A DNA stretch of 34,794 bases from an uncultured Thiocystis sp. (GTDB taxonomy: Bacteria > Pseudomonadota > Gammaproteobacteria > Chromatiales > Chromatiaceae), in contig NZ_CAIPNF010000147.1 in the NCBI RefSeq assembly GCF_903866365.1, positions 1-34,794 of the forward strand, written 5' to 3'. The notes beneath the pieces were generated by a model. The model was not told where the DNA came from, searched no databases, and was given only the letters and a program-made list of their open reading frames with translations. Below are positions 26,766-34,626 of the stretch, piece after piece. Made by a program: the position numbers and the translations under genes. Positions within the stretch are counted from its first letter, which is position 1. The number at the start of each line of letters is the position of its first letter.

Positions 26766-26782
26766 TGGCATGAAGCCTGCTT
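26766..26782 (+). promoter_or_regulatory. sigma-54 (RpoN) -24/-12 promoter of the nifEN operon
   Basis: TGGCATGAAGCCTGCTT matches TGGCACG-N4-TTGCT, with GG (26767-26768) and GC (26779-26780) exactly 10 nt apart as sigma-54 requires. Transcription should start near 26791. That excludes the TTG at 26781 as a translation start and supports the ATG at 26817. Confidence 0.87.
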
Positions 26783-26816: not shown

Positions 26817-29687
26817 ATGAAGCAGAAAGACATTGCCGCCCTGCTCGACGAGCCGGCCTGCGCGCACAATCGAAAGGAAAAATCCGGCTGCGCCAAGCCC
26901 AAGCCGGGTGCCACGGCCGGCGGTTGCACCTTCGACGGGGCGCAGATCGCCATGCTGCCGATCGGCGATGTCGCCCACATCGTCCATGGCTCCATCGCCT
27001 GTGCCGGCAATTCCTGGGACAACCGGGGCACCCGCTCCAGCGGCCCGACCCTCTACAAGATCGGCATGACCACCGACCTGACCGAGCAGGACATCATCAT
27101 GGGTCGCGGCGAAAAGCGGCTCTTCCACTCGATCAAACAGGCCATCGACAGCTACCAGCCGGCGGCGGTCTTCGTCTACAACACCTGCGTCCCCGCCCTG
27201 ACCGGCGATGACATGGTCGCCGTCTGCAAGGACGCGCAGGCGCGCTGGGGCACGCCGGTGGTCCCGATCGACGCCGCCGGTTTCTATGGGGCCAAAAACC
27301 TCGGGAGCCGGATCGCGGGCGAGGCGATGGTCAAGTATGTCTGCGGCACCCGCGAGCCGGATCCGCTCCCCGAGGGCATCGAGCGCGAAGGCTTCAAGAT
27401 CCACGACATCTGTCTGATCGGCGAGTACAACATCGCCGGCGAACTCTGGCGCGTGCTGCCGCTGTTCGACGAACTCGGGTTGCGGGTGCTCTGCACGCTC
27501 TCGGGCGACGGCCGCTTCCGCGAGGTGCAGACCATGCACCGCGCGGAGGTCAACATGATGGTCTGCTCGCGGGCGCTGGTGAATGTCGCCCGCAAGCTCC
27601 AGGACGCCTACGGCACGCCCTGGTTCGAGGGCAGTTTCTATGGGGTACGGGATGTCTCGCAGGCGCTGCGCGATTTCGCCCGGATTCTCGACGATCCCGA
27701 TCTCACCGCCCGCGTCGAGGCCGTGATCGCCCGCGAAGAGGCCCGCGCCAATGCCGCGCTCGCACCCTGGCGCCAGCGTCTGCAAGGCAAGAAGGTGCTG
27801 CTCTATACCGGCGGCGTCAAATCCTGGTCGGTGATCTCCGCGCTTCAGGATCTGGGCATGACCGTGGTCGCCAGCGGCACCCGCAAGTCCACCGAGGACG
27901 ACAAGGCGCGCATCCGCGAACTCATGGGCGAGGACGCGGTGATGCTCGAAGAGGGCAATCCGCGCACCCTGATCGACATGGTGAACGCGCAGGGTATCGA
28001 CATCCTGATCGCCGGCGGACGCAACATGTACACCGCGCTCAAGGCGCGCATCCCCTTTCTGGACATCAATCAGGAACGCGAATTCGGCTATTCCGGCTAT
28101 GCCGGCATGGAGGAACTGGCGAAACAACTCTGCCTGACCATCGAGAGCCCGGTCTGGGAGGCGGTCCGCCGTCCCGCGCCCTGGGGCAGACCGGTCAGCA
28201 ACCAGCCACCAGCCTCCAGCGTTGAGCTTGACATGGCAAAACGGTACAACGCAATCGCTGGAGGCTGGAGGCTGACGGCTGGGGGCTGTCTGCCTGAGAT
28301 CGTCAAACGCAAGAAAGCACTCTCGGTCAGCCCGCTCAAGGCCAGCTCGACGGTCGGCGCGGCGCTCGCCTTTCTGGGGTTCAATCGCGCCATCCCGATG
28401 CTGCATGGCGCTCAGGGTTGCACCGCCTTCGGCAAGATCCTGTTCGTGCGTCATTTCCGCGAACCCATCCCGTTGCAGTCGACCGCCATCGATCAGATCA
28501 GCGCCGTCATGGGCAGCGAAGCGATGGTGATCGAGGGACTCAAAACACTCTGCGAGAAGCACGCCCCCGACCTGATCGGCGTGCCGACCACCGGACTGGT
28601 GGAAACGCAGGGCGCGGACATCCAGATGGCGGTGCACGTCTTCCGCCAGACCTATCCGCAGTTCGACGCCATCCCGGTGGTCGCGGTCTCGACCCCGGAT
28701 TTCACCGGATCGATGGAGACGGGTTACGCCGAGGCGACCCGTGCCATCATCGAGACCCTGGTCCCGACCGCCGCCGAGGCGAACACCCAGCCGGGGCGGC
28801 GCCGGCGTCAGGTCAATGTGCTGGCCGGCTCGCATCTGACGCCCGGCGATCTGGAGCACCTCAAGGACCTGATCGAGCTGTTCGGGCTGCGCCCGGTGGT
28901 GCTGCCCGACCTCTCCGATTCGCTGGACGGACACCTGCCCGAGTCTGATTACAGCCCGCTCTCCATCGGCGGCGCACTGGTCAGCGAACTCGCGACCCTG
29001 GGCGATGCCCTGGCGACGCTCGTCATCGGCAACTCGATGCAGGCACCGGCGGACGTGCTCAAGGCCCGCACCGGCGTACCCGATCATCGTTTCCCGCACC
29101 TCATGGGGCTGGATGCCGTCGACGCGCTGATCCTGACCCTGTCCGAGCTTGCCGCCGTGCCGGTCCCGGCCAAAATCGAGCGCCAGCGCGCGCAGCTTCA
29201 GGACGCCATGCTGGACTGTCATTTCATGCTCGGCATGTCGCGCTTCGCCATCGCCGCCGACCCGGATCTGCTGGTCAGTCTGACCCAGATGCTCGCCGGC
29301 GTCGGGGCGGAAACCGTGGTCGCCGTCAGCCCGATCAACGCCCCCTCTCTGACGAATGCCGTCTGCGATCAGGTCAAGATCGGCGATCTGGAGGATCTAG
29401 AACTTGGCGCGCGCGCACGCAAGGCCGAAGTCCTGATCACCAACTCGCACGGCGTCCACACGGGGAAGCGTCTCGGCATCCCGCTGCTACGGGCCGGTTT
29501 CCCCCAATACGACCTGCTGGGCGGTTTCCAGCGCACCTGGATCGGCTATCAGGGCACGCGCGCGACCCTCTTCGATCTGGCCAACATCCTGCTGACGCAG
29601 GAAAAAGGCGAAATCCATCCCTATCGCTCGCCGCTCAAACAATGGCCCGACAACGAGCGACACACCGAAATCAAACACGCCGCGTAG
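26817..29687 (+). CDS. nifEN: NifE-NifN fusion, nitrogenase FeMo-cofactor scaffold
   Basis: One 956-codon frame joins two proteins normally encoded separately. NifE is residues 1 to about 461 ([13 protein letters not shown]..., [72 protein letters not shown]). NifN is about 492-956 ([25 protein letters not shown]-equivalent [53 protein letters not shown]). Together they build the alpha2beta2 scaffold that matures the FeMo-cofactor before insertion into NifDK. About 30 linker residues (462-491) come from an imperfect palindrome (28196-28288) with no stop. The usual nifE stop and nifN ATG are gone; the residue before PEIVKR is CTG. ATG 26817 is chosen over TTG 26781 because of the promoter. It leads an operon with nifX and others. 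A weak CTG restart at 28290 (GGGGG nearby) cannot be excluded. Confidence 0.93.
28196..28288. repeat. 93-bp imperfect palindrome at the nifE-nifN junction
   Basis: The left arm (28196-28221) is built of CAGCC/CCAG steps ending CCTCCAGCG. The right arm (28256-28288) reads its inverse, with one extra 7-bp GCTGGAG step. The arms enclose a 34-nt spacer. It is exactly 31 codons and keeps the frame open from nifE into nifN. The composition suggests a dispersed palindromic repeat inserted here; copies elsewhere in the genome are expected. Confidence 0.85.
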
Positions 29688-29714
29688 GATGGGTAGAGCG
29701 AAGCGAAACCCATC
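29688..29714. repeat. small palindromic repeat directly after the nifN stop
   Basis: GATGGGT at 29688-29694 and ACCCATC at 29708-29714 form a hairpin, with GAGCGAAGCG in the loop. It begins immediately after the TAG stop, so the stop probably belongs to the repeat flank. The GATGGGT...AACCCATC type recurs in many bacterial genomes in my memory. It lies between nifEN and nifX and may act on mRNA stability. Confidence 0.75.
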
Positions 29715-29739
29715 ATTCCCGTCAGGAGCGGAGATCCCC

Positions 29740-30225
29740 ATGACCGTGGAACGCAGATTCAGAATCCTAAGCTGTTGCAACGAGGCGAAACGAATGAGCA
29801 CAGCGGTCAAGGTCGCCTTTGCCACCTCCAATCTGAAACAGGTCGACCAGCATTTCGGCGCGGCCGAATCCTTCGCCATTTATGCGATCGACCAAGAGCA
29901 GGCAAGCCTGATCGAGGTCGTCCAGTTCGGCCAACTCGACAGGGACGGCAACGAGGACAAACTCGCCGCCAAGATCGACGCACTCAAGGGTTGTATCGCC
30001 ATCTACTGTCAGGCGATCGGCGCCTCGGCGGTCAATCAGCTTCGGCCCAAGGGCATCCAGCCCGTCAAGGTGTCGGCAGGCACGCCCCTGACTCAGGCGA
30101 TTTGCGGACTCCAGACCGAGATGCGCGAGGGACCGAGCGCCTGGCTCGCCCGCGCCATCGAGAGTCAGCATCCCACCCACGGACAACGCTTCGACGCCAT
30201 GGAGGCCGAGGGATGGAGCGAGTGA
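29740..30225 (+). CDS. nifX: NifX, FeMo-cofactor/NifB-cofactor carrier
   Basis: NifX binds NifB-co and cofactor precursors and passes them through the NifEN pathway. The product (161 residues) has the family core VKVAFATSNLKQVDQHFGAAESFAIYAI, DGNEDKLAAKIDALKGCIAIYCQAIGASAVNQL and the C-terminal GPSAWLARAI..RFDAMEAEGWSE. This fits Azotobacter NifX. ATG 29740 follows GGAG about 7 nt upstream; codons before it (from 29689) are read from the GATGGGT repeat and are not NifX. It is separated from nifEN by 52 bp of repeat and ends by overlapping the RseC-like gene at GTGA (30222-30225). Confidence 0.92.
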   Translation: MTVERRFRILSCCNEAKRMSTAVKVAFATSNLKQVDQHFGAAESFAIYAIDQEQASLIEVVQFGQLDRDGNEDKLAAKIDALKGCIAIYCQAIGASAVNQLRPKGIQPVKVSAGTPLTQAICGLQTEMREGPSAWLARAIESQHPTHGQRFDAMEAEGWSE

Positions 30226-30716: not shown

Positions 30717-31190
30717 ATGACCGAAACGACCACCACGAGCGTCGAGAACGAAGGACTCCTGACCTCCAGCTTCGTCGTCGAAATGGTGCGCCAGATGCGC
30801 GCCATCGACCCTTACGGTACCTACGACTCGCTGTCGACGACCGAAATCCTGGAGCCATTCATCCTCACGAAGGAGAAAAAGCGCGAGATCCCGATCATCG
30901 GCGACCCCGACGAGATCGTGATTGCCCGGATCAAGGTCTTCTACAACGCCATCTCGGCCATGATCGAATCCGAATGCGGCCTGATGGCCGTTCCCCTGGT
31001 CAACCTGAGCCACGAAGGTTTCGGGCGCGCGCTCATCACCGTCGGCAAACTGGTCGTCATGGACCGCACCCTGCGCGATGTCCACCGTTTCGGCTTTCCC
31101 AGCCTGTCCAAGATGAAGGACGAAGGCGACAAAATCCTGTCCGTCGCCCTGGAACTGATCGGCACCCACCCGAAGGTCGCGGGACTTTGA
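30717..31190 (+). CDS. NifX-associated nitrogen fixation protein (DUF269)
   Basis: The protein has 157 residues with the DUF269 pattern: FVVEMVRQMRAIDPYGTYDSLS, RIKVFYNAISAMIESECGLMAVPLVNLSHEGFGRALITVGKLVVMDRTLRDVHRFGFPSL and KMKDEGDKILSVALELI. Members occur beside nifX in most nif clusters; the precise function is undefined, but roles in cofactor synthesis or dinitrogenase maturation are proposed. It begins 3 nt after the RseC-like stop. Gene order nifEN-nifX-(rseC)-DUF269-DUF683-ferredoxin is typical apart from the RseC insertion. Confidence 0.93.
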   Translation: MTETTTTSVENEGLLTSSFVVEMVRQMRAIDPYGTYDSLSTTEILEPFILTKEKKREIPIIGDPDEIVIARIKVFYNAISAMIESECGLMAVPLVNLSHEGFGRALITVGKLVVMDRTLRDVHRFGFPSLSKMKDEGDKILSVALELIGTHPKVAGL

Positions 31191-31545: not shown

Positions 31546-31857
31546 ATGCCCATCATCACAGGTGTCACGCGGGGCGGGGTCGAATGGACGCCCGCGTTCG
31601 TCGTCGACATCAACCAGAACAACTGCATCGGCTGTGGCCGCTGCTACAAAGTCTGTCCGCGCGATGTCTTCGAGCTGATCGATCGCGACGATCTCGACCT
31701 CGAAGAGATCGAAAGCGATGATGACGATTTCGACGAAGAAGTCCCCGGCATGGTGATGAACCTCAAGGACCAGCTCGACTGCATCGGTTGTCAGGCGTGC
31801 TCCAAGGTCTGTCCGAAAGACTGTCTATCGCACGAGCCGCAGGCAATCGCGGCTTAA
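31546..31857 (+). CDS. fdxB: nif-specific ferredoxin III (2[4Fe-4S])
   Basis: This 103-residue ferredoxin carries two clusters: CIGCGRCYKVCP in the first half and CIGCQACSKVCP in the second. They are separated by a long acidic insert (DDLDLEEIESDDDDFDEE). That architecture is typical of FdxB/ferredoxin III of nif operons, which may supply electrons for cofactor assembly or nitrogenase. GGAG lies 7 nt before the ATG. It is the last gene of the operon, 123 bp after DUF683, and is followed by a strong hairpin. Confidence 0.93.
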   Translation: MPIITGVTRGGVEWTPAFVVDINQNNCIGCGRCYKVCPRDVFELIDRDDLDLEEIESDDDDFDEEVPGMVMNLKDQLDCIGCQACSKVCPKDCLSHEPQAIAA

Positions 31858-31959: not shown

Positions 31960-34626
31960 CTATCGTTTGATCGCGAATGTCGCCTTCACGCTTTTGGCTG
32001 CGCTCATCGCCAGATTGCAGCTTCCGATACCGGTACAGCCCCCGCTCCAGCCACTAAACACGTATCCACTAGCCGGGCTGGCGGTCAAGCCGATCGCAGT
32101 ACTTTTGAGATAGACTTCGCTGCAATCGCTGCCGCAGTTAATCCCGCTCGGGGCGCTCGTCACCGTGCCGGTGCCAGATTTGGTGACCTTCAGGGTGTAT
32201 TTGGGGATCGCATTGAAGGTCGCCTTTACGCTTTTGGCCGCACTCATGGTGACAGTGCAGGTGGCTCCGCTCACCGTGGCGCAACCGCTCCATCCACTAA
32301 ACACATATCCGCTGGCCGGGCTGGCGGTCAGGCTGATCGCAGCACCTTGGAGATAGGCTTCGCTGCAATCGCTGCCGCAGTTAATCCCGCTCGGGGCGCT
32401 CGTCACCGTGCCGGTGCCAGACTTGCTCACCTTCAGGGTGTATTTGGGGATCGCCTTGAAAGTCGCCTTCACACTTTTGGCCGCGCTCATGGCGACAGTG
32501 CAGGCGGCCCCGTTCACCGTGGTGCAACCGCTCCAGCTACTGAAGATGGAGTCATTGGCTGGCGCCGCGGTCAGGGTAACGCTAGTGCCGCCGGCATAGC
32601 TTTCAGTGCAGTCGCTGCCGCAGTTGATGCCGGTGCCCGTCACCGTGCCTGTACCAGTCTTGGTCACGCTCAGAGCGTAGGTCGTCGTGACGGGGCACGC
32701 CGAGGTCATAAAAACGAGGTCACTCCCATTGGTTGTGCCAACGCTATTCACCCCCTTGACGCGGTAATGATAGGCGGTGTTGCAAGCAAGCCCTGGAAGG
32801 GTAGTGGTGACCGCCGTGCTGCCCCTTCCGGCGCTGAGACTGCTCGGGTTGGCCGCCACCGTCGTTCCGTAGTTGGTGGTGAGACCATACTCGAAGCTGA
32901 CCGAGGTGGTAGCCCCTTTGTCATCGACCGCGCCATTGATCGTAGCCGTATTCGCCGTGATGACACTCGCCGCGGCGGTGCTGGCCGTGGGAGCAGTGGG
33001 GGCAGTGGAACCGTCGGGCGATGTGGTAAACGCCCGAATCGTGACATTCGTGTTGGCATAGGCGGCGGCAAGATCCGTCCAAGCTGTCCCGTTCGAACTG
33101 ATATAGCTCTGGCCGGCACTGGCGGTTGCCGCGCTATTGTAGTTACCGAAGGGGTACTCCATAGGAATCGGGTAGTTGTACCCAGGTGTGATGACCTTGA
33201 TGACGACCGCGAACTTTTCCCCGGCTAACAGCGAAACCGGCCGTGATAAATCGACCGTGTGATAACCGGCATAGGCAAAGGATCCCAGGGTATTGACCGA
33301 CCCGCCTTCGAGCACGCCTGTCGATGGGGCGCCCGATACCCCAGTGTAGATGGAGATCTCATAACTCGTATTTGCAGCCCCGGTAAAAAAGGCAACCGAC
33401 TGCAAGGTTTCGCTCGCCACCGCGTTGAAAACGTTTGCTCCCCATGCCGTGTTGGAGCCAAAACCAATAGAGGATGTCTGTCCGAACGGATCATAGAGAT
33501 AGGATCTTACAAAGTTATCGGCGTTTTCCGCTGCGCGAAAGACATGCGCGTCGCCAAGCGATGCATCGTAATAGGAAATGTAGAAATAGCCGCTGCTACC
33601 CCACCCGGTTCCCCAACTGTTTTTAATAATGAACGCGCCATTTCCTGGAGGGATAGTTCTGAAGTTGCTTGCCGCGTAATTGTCATCCCACCCAACCAGG
33701 GTGACGGCATGATTGCTAGGCGAAGATCCATTGTAATGGTAGGACTTTGTGGATTGGTTCCAGTAGCTGGAATTGACGCTACTACCCATGCCATTGTCGG
33801 CATAGAAGGAGACATAGATCGCGCCATAATTTTGCAGTGCATTCTTGTAGTTATCGTTATCGGTACCATTCGAGCGATCGGGTAAAACCAGAAACTCCTG
33901 TACATGCATGCGCGGCGAGAGGCCCGAGACGGAAGTGGCATTTGTGGACGTATAGGGATCGTCATCCTCATAAACCAGCCCGGCAGCAAGCGAGTTGCTG
34001 TTGCCCCACCGGGTCATGTAGGCACCAGCGATATCTCCGTTACCGCCTTGGCAGGCTTTCCAGTTGAACCCATGGCGAACATTCTGGTGATTTTCAGAAA
34101 AATCGTAGACACCGCGGCCATCGATGATGGTATTGGATTCCATCGAAGCGATGCTCGCAAAAGACCAACAGTCTCCGCACGAACCCTGATCCTTAACGCT
34201 CGTGACATCATCTGAAGAGCGCAAATCGAACGACGATGGGTAAGCCGCCGCGGCTCCTGTCGTCAACATCCACGCAACCGAGGTGACGATCGGCGTTGCT
34301 CCGATCATATGCGAACGGTCGATGGGGGAAAGAAGATACCCTTTGCCATGTCCTCCTGACGCCACTGGCGTTTCCTGCATCGATCGCGGTTTGGAAAGCG
34401 CCTGTGTATCGATGAAATCAGGATTCAAGGGTGCCGCGGCTAACTCAGGCTCGGGCTCGGCGTTGGTTTCGGTGCAGGCGAACCTGGTGGTGCCGTCGTC
34501 GCACAGGGCTTGGACGTTACCGTCGGAAGCCGTCGCCGCACTTGCTAGTTGGGCAAACACGGTCAAGCCCAAGCCCAGCGCCGCAAACACCACTCGCCCT
34601 CGATAATCAGTGAAGGTCTTTGACAT
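31960..34626 (-). CDS. secreted papain-like (C1A) cysteine protease with lectin-like domain and repeats
   Basis: The 888-residue protein starts with a signal peptide (to about ASA, residue 30). A C1A peptidase domain follows: the oxyanion Gln and catalytic Cys in KDQGSCGDCWSFAS, catalytic His in SNHAVTLVGWDDNY and Asn in FIIKNSWGTGWGSSGYFYISYYD, so the triad is complete. After it comes a beta-rich lectin-like domain (about 365-530), then a fibronectin-III-like module (TANTATINGAVDDKGATTSVSFEYGLTTNYG). Three C-terminal repeats of about 81 residues follow, each with INCGSDC and SAAKSVKATF, of the InlB B-repeat-like kind. It is presumably exported and attached or secreted. The start ATG has AAGGA only 1 nt upstream, which is tight. 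An IS5-family element lies 19 nt upstream and may have displaced the promoter. No protease substrate is known. Confidence 0.9.
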   Translation of the reverse strand: MSKTFTDYRGRVVFAALGLGLTVFAQLASAATASDGNVQALCDDGTTRFACTETNAEPEPELAAAPLNPDFIDTQALSKPRSMQETPVASGGHGKGYLLSPIDRSHMIGATPIVTSVAWMLTTGAAAAYPSSFDLRSSDDVTSVKDQGSCGDCWSFASIASMESNTIIDGRGVYDFSENHQNVRHGFNWKACQGGNGDIAGAYMTRWGNSNSLAAGLVYEDDDPYTSTNATSVSGLSPRMHVQEFLVLPDRSNGTDNDNYKNALQNYGAIYVSFYADNGMGSSVNSSYWNQSTKSYHYNGSSPSNHAVTLVGWDDNYAASNFRTIPPGNGAFIIKNSWGTGWGSSGYFYISYYDASLGDAHVFRAAENADNFVRSYLYDPFGQTSSIGFGSNTAWGANVFNAVASETLQSVAFFTGAANTSYEISIYTGVSGAPSTGVLEGGSVNTLGSFAYAGYHTVDLSRPVSLLAGEKFAVVIKVITPGYNYPIPMEYPFGNYNSAATASAGQSYISSNGTAWTDLAAAYANTNVTIRAFTTSPDGSTAPTAPTASTAAASVITANTATINGAVDDKGATTSVSFEYGLTTNYGTTVAANPSSLSAGRGSTAVTTTLPGLACNTAYHYRVKGVNSVGTTNGSDLVFMTSACPVTTTYALSVTKTGTGTVTGTGINCGSDCTESYAGGTSVTLTAAPANDSIFSSWSGCTTVNGAACTVAMSAAKSVKATFKAIPKYTLKVSKSGTGTVTSAPSGINCGSDCSEAYLQGAAISLTASPASGYVFSGWSGCATVSGATCTVTMSAAKSVKATFNAIPKYTLKVTKSGTGTVTSAPSGINCGSDCSEVYLKSTAIGLTASPASGYVFSGWSGGCTGIGSCNLAMSAAKSVKATFAIKR
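31967..32690. repeat. three about 243-bp tandem coding repeats at the protease C-terminus
   Basis: The GCTGCCGCAG block recurs at 32128, 32371 and 32614, a 243-bp period (81 codons). Repeats nearest the gene's 3' end are nearly identical over long stretches, while the first unit has diverged and lacks a few codons. Recent duplication and strain-to-strain change in number are likely. Confidence 0.85.

Follow-up and report, generated by a model that had tools for sequence, protein, structure and literature searches.

Natural fusions of NifE and NifN are already known, as are palindromic repeats carried in frame inside genes. According to excerpts of the respective papers, 29 fused assemblies were counted from Cyanobacteria and Nitrospira (PMC8399215), and a NifEN fusion occurs in Thermodesulfovibrio, where it is called uncommon (PMC12501866). 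The natural fusions of Geobacter metallireducens and Anabaena variabilis, again according to an excerpt (PMC10865832), worked in Azotobacter vinelandii, though their activity was relatively low. In-frame palindromes inside genes are exemplified in the same manner by the Rickettsia palindromic elements and other bacterial MITEs (PMC10969869, PMC2229807). Here a contig of 34,794 bases (the window) from an uncultured Thiocystis sp. was analyzed, the genome being a 5.5 Mb draft of 503 contigs. An earlier note, made from the DNA letters alone, had treated the nifE–nifN fusion in this contig as a new kind of thing, which does not hold in view of the natural fusions already known. Among the papers listed first by our literature searches, which covered few subscription journals, none described nifE and nifN joined by a palindromic repeat, or a NifEN fusion in Thiocystis or Chromatium.

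The fused frame and its two halves

The single frame running from nifE into nifN was borne out (Table 1). It is closed by a TAG at 29685-29687, and there is no stop codon inside, whether it is read from the TTG or from the ATG. In profile searches the fused protein scored 718 bits against TIGR01283 (nifE, cut-off 505) and 599 bits against TIGR01285 (nifN, cut-off 327). With NCBIfam NF011047 (bifunctional NifEN) it scored 1142.2 bits, below the curated cut-off of 1229. The NifE chains of 3pdi and 9iao align with the window protein without gaps over residues 1-465, past RRPAPW; 3PDI is the A. vinelandii structure, as stated in an excerpt of PMC13031127. A predicted model (14 sequences) had both domains present, with a mean pLDDT of 72 and a pTM of 0.67, and the pLDDT fell below 50 in the linker region, 460-490. 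The best match of this model among solved structures was single-chain GmNifEN (9i0g, TM 0.79/0.85), where we took Gm to mean G. metallireducens.

Table 1. Features of the window and their positions
Feature	Position	Strand	Remarks
NifE-linker-NifN single frame	26817-29687	+	956 aa; ATG start, stop-free; TTG at 26781 is an alternative upstream start
NifE part	26817-28187	+	Complete through the conserved ...RRPAPW; replacement limited to the weakly conserved tail
Dispersed palindromic repeat copy	28188-28293		Profile length 186, terminal inverted repeats; most of the core missing here
Inverted repeat described in the earlier note	28196-28288		Heptad arms (GCTGNNG) flanking a loop
In-frame ATG in the loop	28233-28235	+	Possible, weakly placed internal NifN start; no GGAGG-like site immediately upstream
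CTG at the position of the nifN ATG of the kin	28290-28292	+	From sequence comparison with T. minor and G005
NifN part	28290-29687	+	Complete; family match and structural alignment
Remnant TGA of the ancestral nifE stop	28295-28297	+	Letters kept, now out of frame
nifX-like gene	29689-30225	+	Downstream; TIGR02663 106.4 bits, slightly below cut-off 112
NifX-associated protein	30717-31190	+	TIGR02935
nif-specific ferredoxin III	31546-31857	+	TIGR02936

All of the 14 fused proteins compared share cysteines 25, 37, 62, 124, 250 and 535. We take residues 37, 62, 124 and NifN 44 (here 535) to be the iron-sulphur cluster holders. Cysteine 250 is a named cluster ligand in the excerpted text of PMC13031127.

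For comparison, the same-genus genomes of Thiocystis minor DSM 178 (G001), Chromatium weissei DSM 5161 (G006), C. okenii DSM 169 (G002), an uncultured Chromatium (G004) and a complete congener of 5,017,071 bases (G005) were used. Between the window and T. minor, dN/dS was 0.065 for NifE and 0.081 for NifN, values that carry little information on the fusion if it is recent. Values were similar between T. minor and G005 (0.094 and 0.087), which are both unfused. In the fused pair C. weissei and C. okenii, dN/dS was 0.050 (NifE) and 0.104 (NifN) at dS above 1. Thus a fused NifEN can last. Private codon changes in NifN, given as nonsynonymous to synonymous, were 10:34 in the window, 8:36 in G005 and 4:27 in T. 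minor. By these values, both halves are under purifying selection with no sign of decay, which agrees with the view of the earlier note that both are intact and selected.

A search of the same genome with the C-terminal fifth of NifE plus the NifN start found no second nifEN locus. The one other match had 34% identity and is probably a related NifK. A stricter NifN search likewise found no second nifN in this genome. Farther along the window, an 888-aa frame on the minus strand (31960-34626) resembles, by reading of the sequence, a papain-type protease with repeated C-terminal stretches. The part at 32206-32526 has a second alignment to a T. minor contig.

The joint and the repeat family

In the nearest kin, T. 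minor and G005, nifE and nifN are separate genes with a stop/start overlap, ATGCCTGA, and a junction free of the repeat. There, the TGA of nifE falls within the ATGCCTGAG of nifN, giving an overlap of 8 bases. The nifE–nifN overlap is ancestral, because outgroups such as L036, L037 and L040 show it too. By this comparison, a repeat copy in the window takes the place of the nifN start and of about 25-30 codons at the non-conserved C-terminal end of nifE, and the letters at the joint read GCTGTC-TGCCTGAG; the joint sequence of the draft assembly is CTGTCTGCCTGAG. The earlier note had placed a CTG at the nifN start position, correctly, and had stated that the C-terminal end and the stop of nifE were removed. 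The tail is indeed gone; the letters of the stop persist out of frame. The three-species Thiocystis clade that holds the window had a support of 0.996, the pairing of the window with T. minor 0.076, and a placement next to two Chromatium lines 0.386. T. minor and the window strain form a close before-and-after pair for coupled subunit genes merging into one.

In another genome, G003 (88% complete, 14% contaminated), nifE and nifN at about 225400-228900 of contig C35 (L008, L071) are interrupted by stops and frame changes, possibly as a result of assembly errors.

The palindrome of 93 bp or 31 codons described in the earlier note corresponds to two arms (28196-28227 and 28257-28288; 78% complementarity) and a spacing of 29 nt between them, and the repeat itself is longer. 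When the whole window was scanned in 433 tiles, each 161 nt long and 80 nt on from the last, the joint proved to hold the strongest inverted repeat, with a score of 16.5 and a runner-up of 12. The RNA fold of the joint reached -64.3 kcal/mol (z -6.3) and the DNA fold had a z of -6.1; in both cases, none of 200 shuffles was equal. A search of the joint for structured RNAs known to Rfam gave just two matches, both sub-threshold. A hairpin in the mRNA could slow or break translation.

The earlier note had proposed searching the genome for further palindrome copies. With the nif copy as query, only one other match was found in the same genome, and it was short. The repeat family, which belongs to the Thiocystis lineage, was reached through heptad patterns and a copy at contig C285. 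With the C285 copy as query (E up to 1e-3), 5 matches were found in the window genome, query included, along with 28 in T. minor, 5 in G005, 1 in G004 and none in G002, G003 or G006. Against this single query, the nif copy itself reached an E of only 0.0056, and its family membership depends on a profile. This profile was built, with the nif and atp copies excluded, from 79 stretches of these loci, 63 of them unique, which came from both strands and in part from loci that overlap. Its matches in the window at E < 0.01 were four stretches, all at the joint, the best being 28293-28235 (E 1.2e-7) and the other three ranging from 4e-6 to 1.7e-5. The extent of the nif copy was set by likeness to other copies. 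Full copies have the terminal inverted repeats AAAGAGCnGTCAGC ... GCTGACTGCTCTTT, as read by eye, and the window copy retains the inner part alone of both.

Traits of the MITE type were found: related copies at unrelated sites, terminal inverted repeats, and a filled and an empty site. A stop-free frame runs within the repeat in 19 of 25 distinct copies longer than 120 bp. Since a frame that stays open for 150 bases in each direction surrounds just two of the 25 (and none of the other 23), the family seems to be mostly intergenic. The nif site is the sole filled/empty pair, filled in the window and empty in T. minor and G005, and here the nifE tail is also replaced. Three other comparable copies, the atpA–atpG one and both copies on contig C101, share their position with T. 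minor, which speaks against recent movement of these copies. The C101 stretch aligns across both copies to one T. minor contig. Of the mobile palindrome put forward in the earlier note, the copy of a dispersed repeat stands, and the mobility rests on the one filled/empty site.

The family member between the putative atpA and atpG genes (G000:C174:17541-17672, L062; names from the flanking frames) aligns over its full length in T. minor and G005 (95% identity) and over almost all of it in G004 (82%) and G003 (73%). This copy looks conserved. A tandem run of the heptad GCTGCTG lies elsewhere in the genome (G000:C66:9224-9304). At other nif junctions the repeat was absent from all 176 loci; L124 and L208 have matches elsewhere in the locus. 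A search for the Y1 transposase family gave 10 matches, one of them below the cut-off, and none of the eight Y1 loci examined for a REP-type transposase beside the repeat holds the repeat.

NifEN fusions in the family

NifN was detected at E up to 1e-40 in 92 of 210 family genomes, at 94 places. Frames of fusion length (938 to 1065 aa) were present at 11 of these places, Chromatium among them. We checked 177 loci directly, with many genomes occurring twice, and found 23 to be fused, 15 of those distinct; 23 of 177 is not a frequency, because 80 of the 177 loci were obtained with fused proteins as query. In a tree built from 102 sequences of NifE plus NifN, the 15 fused loci are spread over 10 separate groups, of which 7 belong to the family, and under parsimony 10 changes were required with a separate root. 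Of the 80 named loci, 12 entered this tree, four of them chosen because they are fused. Two short sequences and one lacking NifE were dropped, and the broken genes of G003 were not entered. Within this one bacterial family, NifE and NifN have probably become fused on several occasions. A single ancestral fusion for the whole genus is less likely, as T. minor and G005 retain the ATGCCTGA overlap of the outgroup type. In a sample of genomes spread over the class, NifN was found in 31 of 369, and a frame above 900 aa was found in the window alone. Recurrent fusions in the family supply natural linkers to test, and engineers want the pathway simplified by fused subunits.

Palindromes were rejected as a general explanation of NifEN fusion, since a long inverted repeat is missing from the joint in 14 of the 15 distinct fused loci, all but the window. 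Among 111 junctions, some genomes being counted twice, inverted repeats scoring above 14 were found in the window, in unfused Sedimenticola (2 strains, each twice), in Thiobaca and at L055 and L109. None of the top 16 scores in this set belongs to a fused junction other than the window. The unusual feature here is a repeat that provides the linker and at the same time takes away the start of nifN.

Palindromes of different sequence lie in the nifE–nifN spacer of Thiobaca (L035/L072), Sedimenticola (L180/L183), L055 and L109, where the genes are unfused. The junction seems to tolerate repeats. At L104 and L105 the spacers are about 300 and 250 nt long, and a further small frame may lie inside. 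A second, diverged NifEN-like protein is fused in all three cases found (L212 in G145:C75, L213 in G020:C21 and L214 in G106:C1), with identities of 62-63% in NifE and 53% in NifN. Genomes G145 and G106, taken as Thiobaca because the junction values of L035 and L072 are identical, also carry an unfused pair. The diverged protein is perhaps the partner of an alternative nitrogenase.

Competing readings, proposed origin and known systems

We consider it likely, on the evidence of the sequence and its comparison with kin, that the window encodes a real, translated single-chain NifEN with a repeat copy as linker, which would assemble the FeMo-cofactor as usual. An error of sequencing or assembly is an unlikely alternative explanation of the same letters. 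One base would have been lost at the hairpin, and in the real genome nifE and nifN would be separate, overlapping genes, the repeat lying in the tail of nifE. In the alignments with T. minor and with G005, a gap of one base indeed falls at 28290, exactly at the A of the nifN ATG. The spacer is 130 in the window and 113 in T. minor, so that once the missing base is counted (130+1) the difference is 18 nt, a multiple of three. A strong hairpin sits at this spot, and the draft is fragmented. However, the remaining coding gaps against T. minor and G005 are compensated or multiples of three, with the exception of a single base within the final codons of the gene that stops at 31190. The end of the repeat family itself also accounts for the missing base, and the recurrence of fusions in separate tree groups makes a real one not improbable.

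We also think it quite improbable that the frame is fused and NifN is made in addition by restart at ATG 28233 or CTG 28290, yielding fused protein plus free NifN. The loop does offer an in-frame ATG, and a run of five G ends 4 nt ahead of the CTG, but the GTGGAG that precedes the nifN ATG of the kin (GGAGG in T. minor, GGAGT in G005) is absent from the window. Both candidate starts lie inside the -64 kcal/mol fold, and free NifE could not be produced. That the join is a damaging lesion in a strain losing nitrogen fixation, as might be read from the repeat in a former two-gene junction and from a nifN without its start codon and probable ribosome site, is highly improbable in view of 956 codons otherwise free of stop or frameshift, the private changes in NifN and the retained cysteine columns.

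For the single-chain NifEN with a repeat linker, we propose the following origin. Because nifE and nifN overlap at ATGCCTGA in the kin, a net one-base shift in three would suffice to bring nifE into the frame of nifN. A repeat copy that is stop-free in the fused frame would have come to sit in place of the nifE tail and the nifN start. The end of the repeat family, GCTGACTGC, merges with the TGC in the ATGCC of nifN, and the ATG and the likely ribosome site are lost; this much is visible in the sequence, and we infer the order of events. In one route, a single event would have joined GCTGACTGC to the TGC, overwriting the A. In a second route, the repeat would first have entered the tail of nifE without breaking the frame, 18 nt more than in T. 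minor when the missing base is counted, and a one-base deletion would then have fused the genes. Both routes fit, and an assembly error would look like the second. The absence of the A makes the outer stem GGCAGAC/GTCTGCC perfect. Quasipalindrome repair would yield such a perfected stem.

Translation would then give one chain in which a flexible linker connects NifE to NifN. Two of these chains may pair into a scaffold like that of the single-chain G. metallireducens protein, and the FeMo-cofactor would still be assembled, with the subunits fixed at 1:1. A broader idea, to which we give little credence, is that dispersed palindromes serve as ready-made linkers once they have settled where translationally coupled genes overlap, perhaps driving the fusing base change through quasipalindrome repair, and that a pause at the mRNA hairpin lets NifE fold before NifN.

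By analogy, the window protein most likely works like the NifEN of G. metallireducens and A. variabilis. The natural single-chain proteins, including Thermodesulfovibrio TK110 and those represented by NF011047 and PDB 9i0g, have the same NifE-then-NifN frame and the same fold. The window protein scores below the NF011047 cut-off and would differ from them in having a copy of a palindromic repeat as its linker. Among purple sulphur bacteria and their kin, Chromatium okenii, C. weissei, the uncultured Chromatium and Ca. Thiosymbion likewise have NifE and NifN in frame. In contrast to the window, their linkers are shorter and have no long inverted repeat, and the tree points to separate events, with weak support next to Chromatium. 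The Rickettsia palindromic elements and MITEs are likewise small dispersed palindromes translated within a protein, a likeness by analogy only. Unlike the Rickettsia elements, the repeat in the window links two formerly separate genes.
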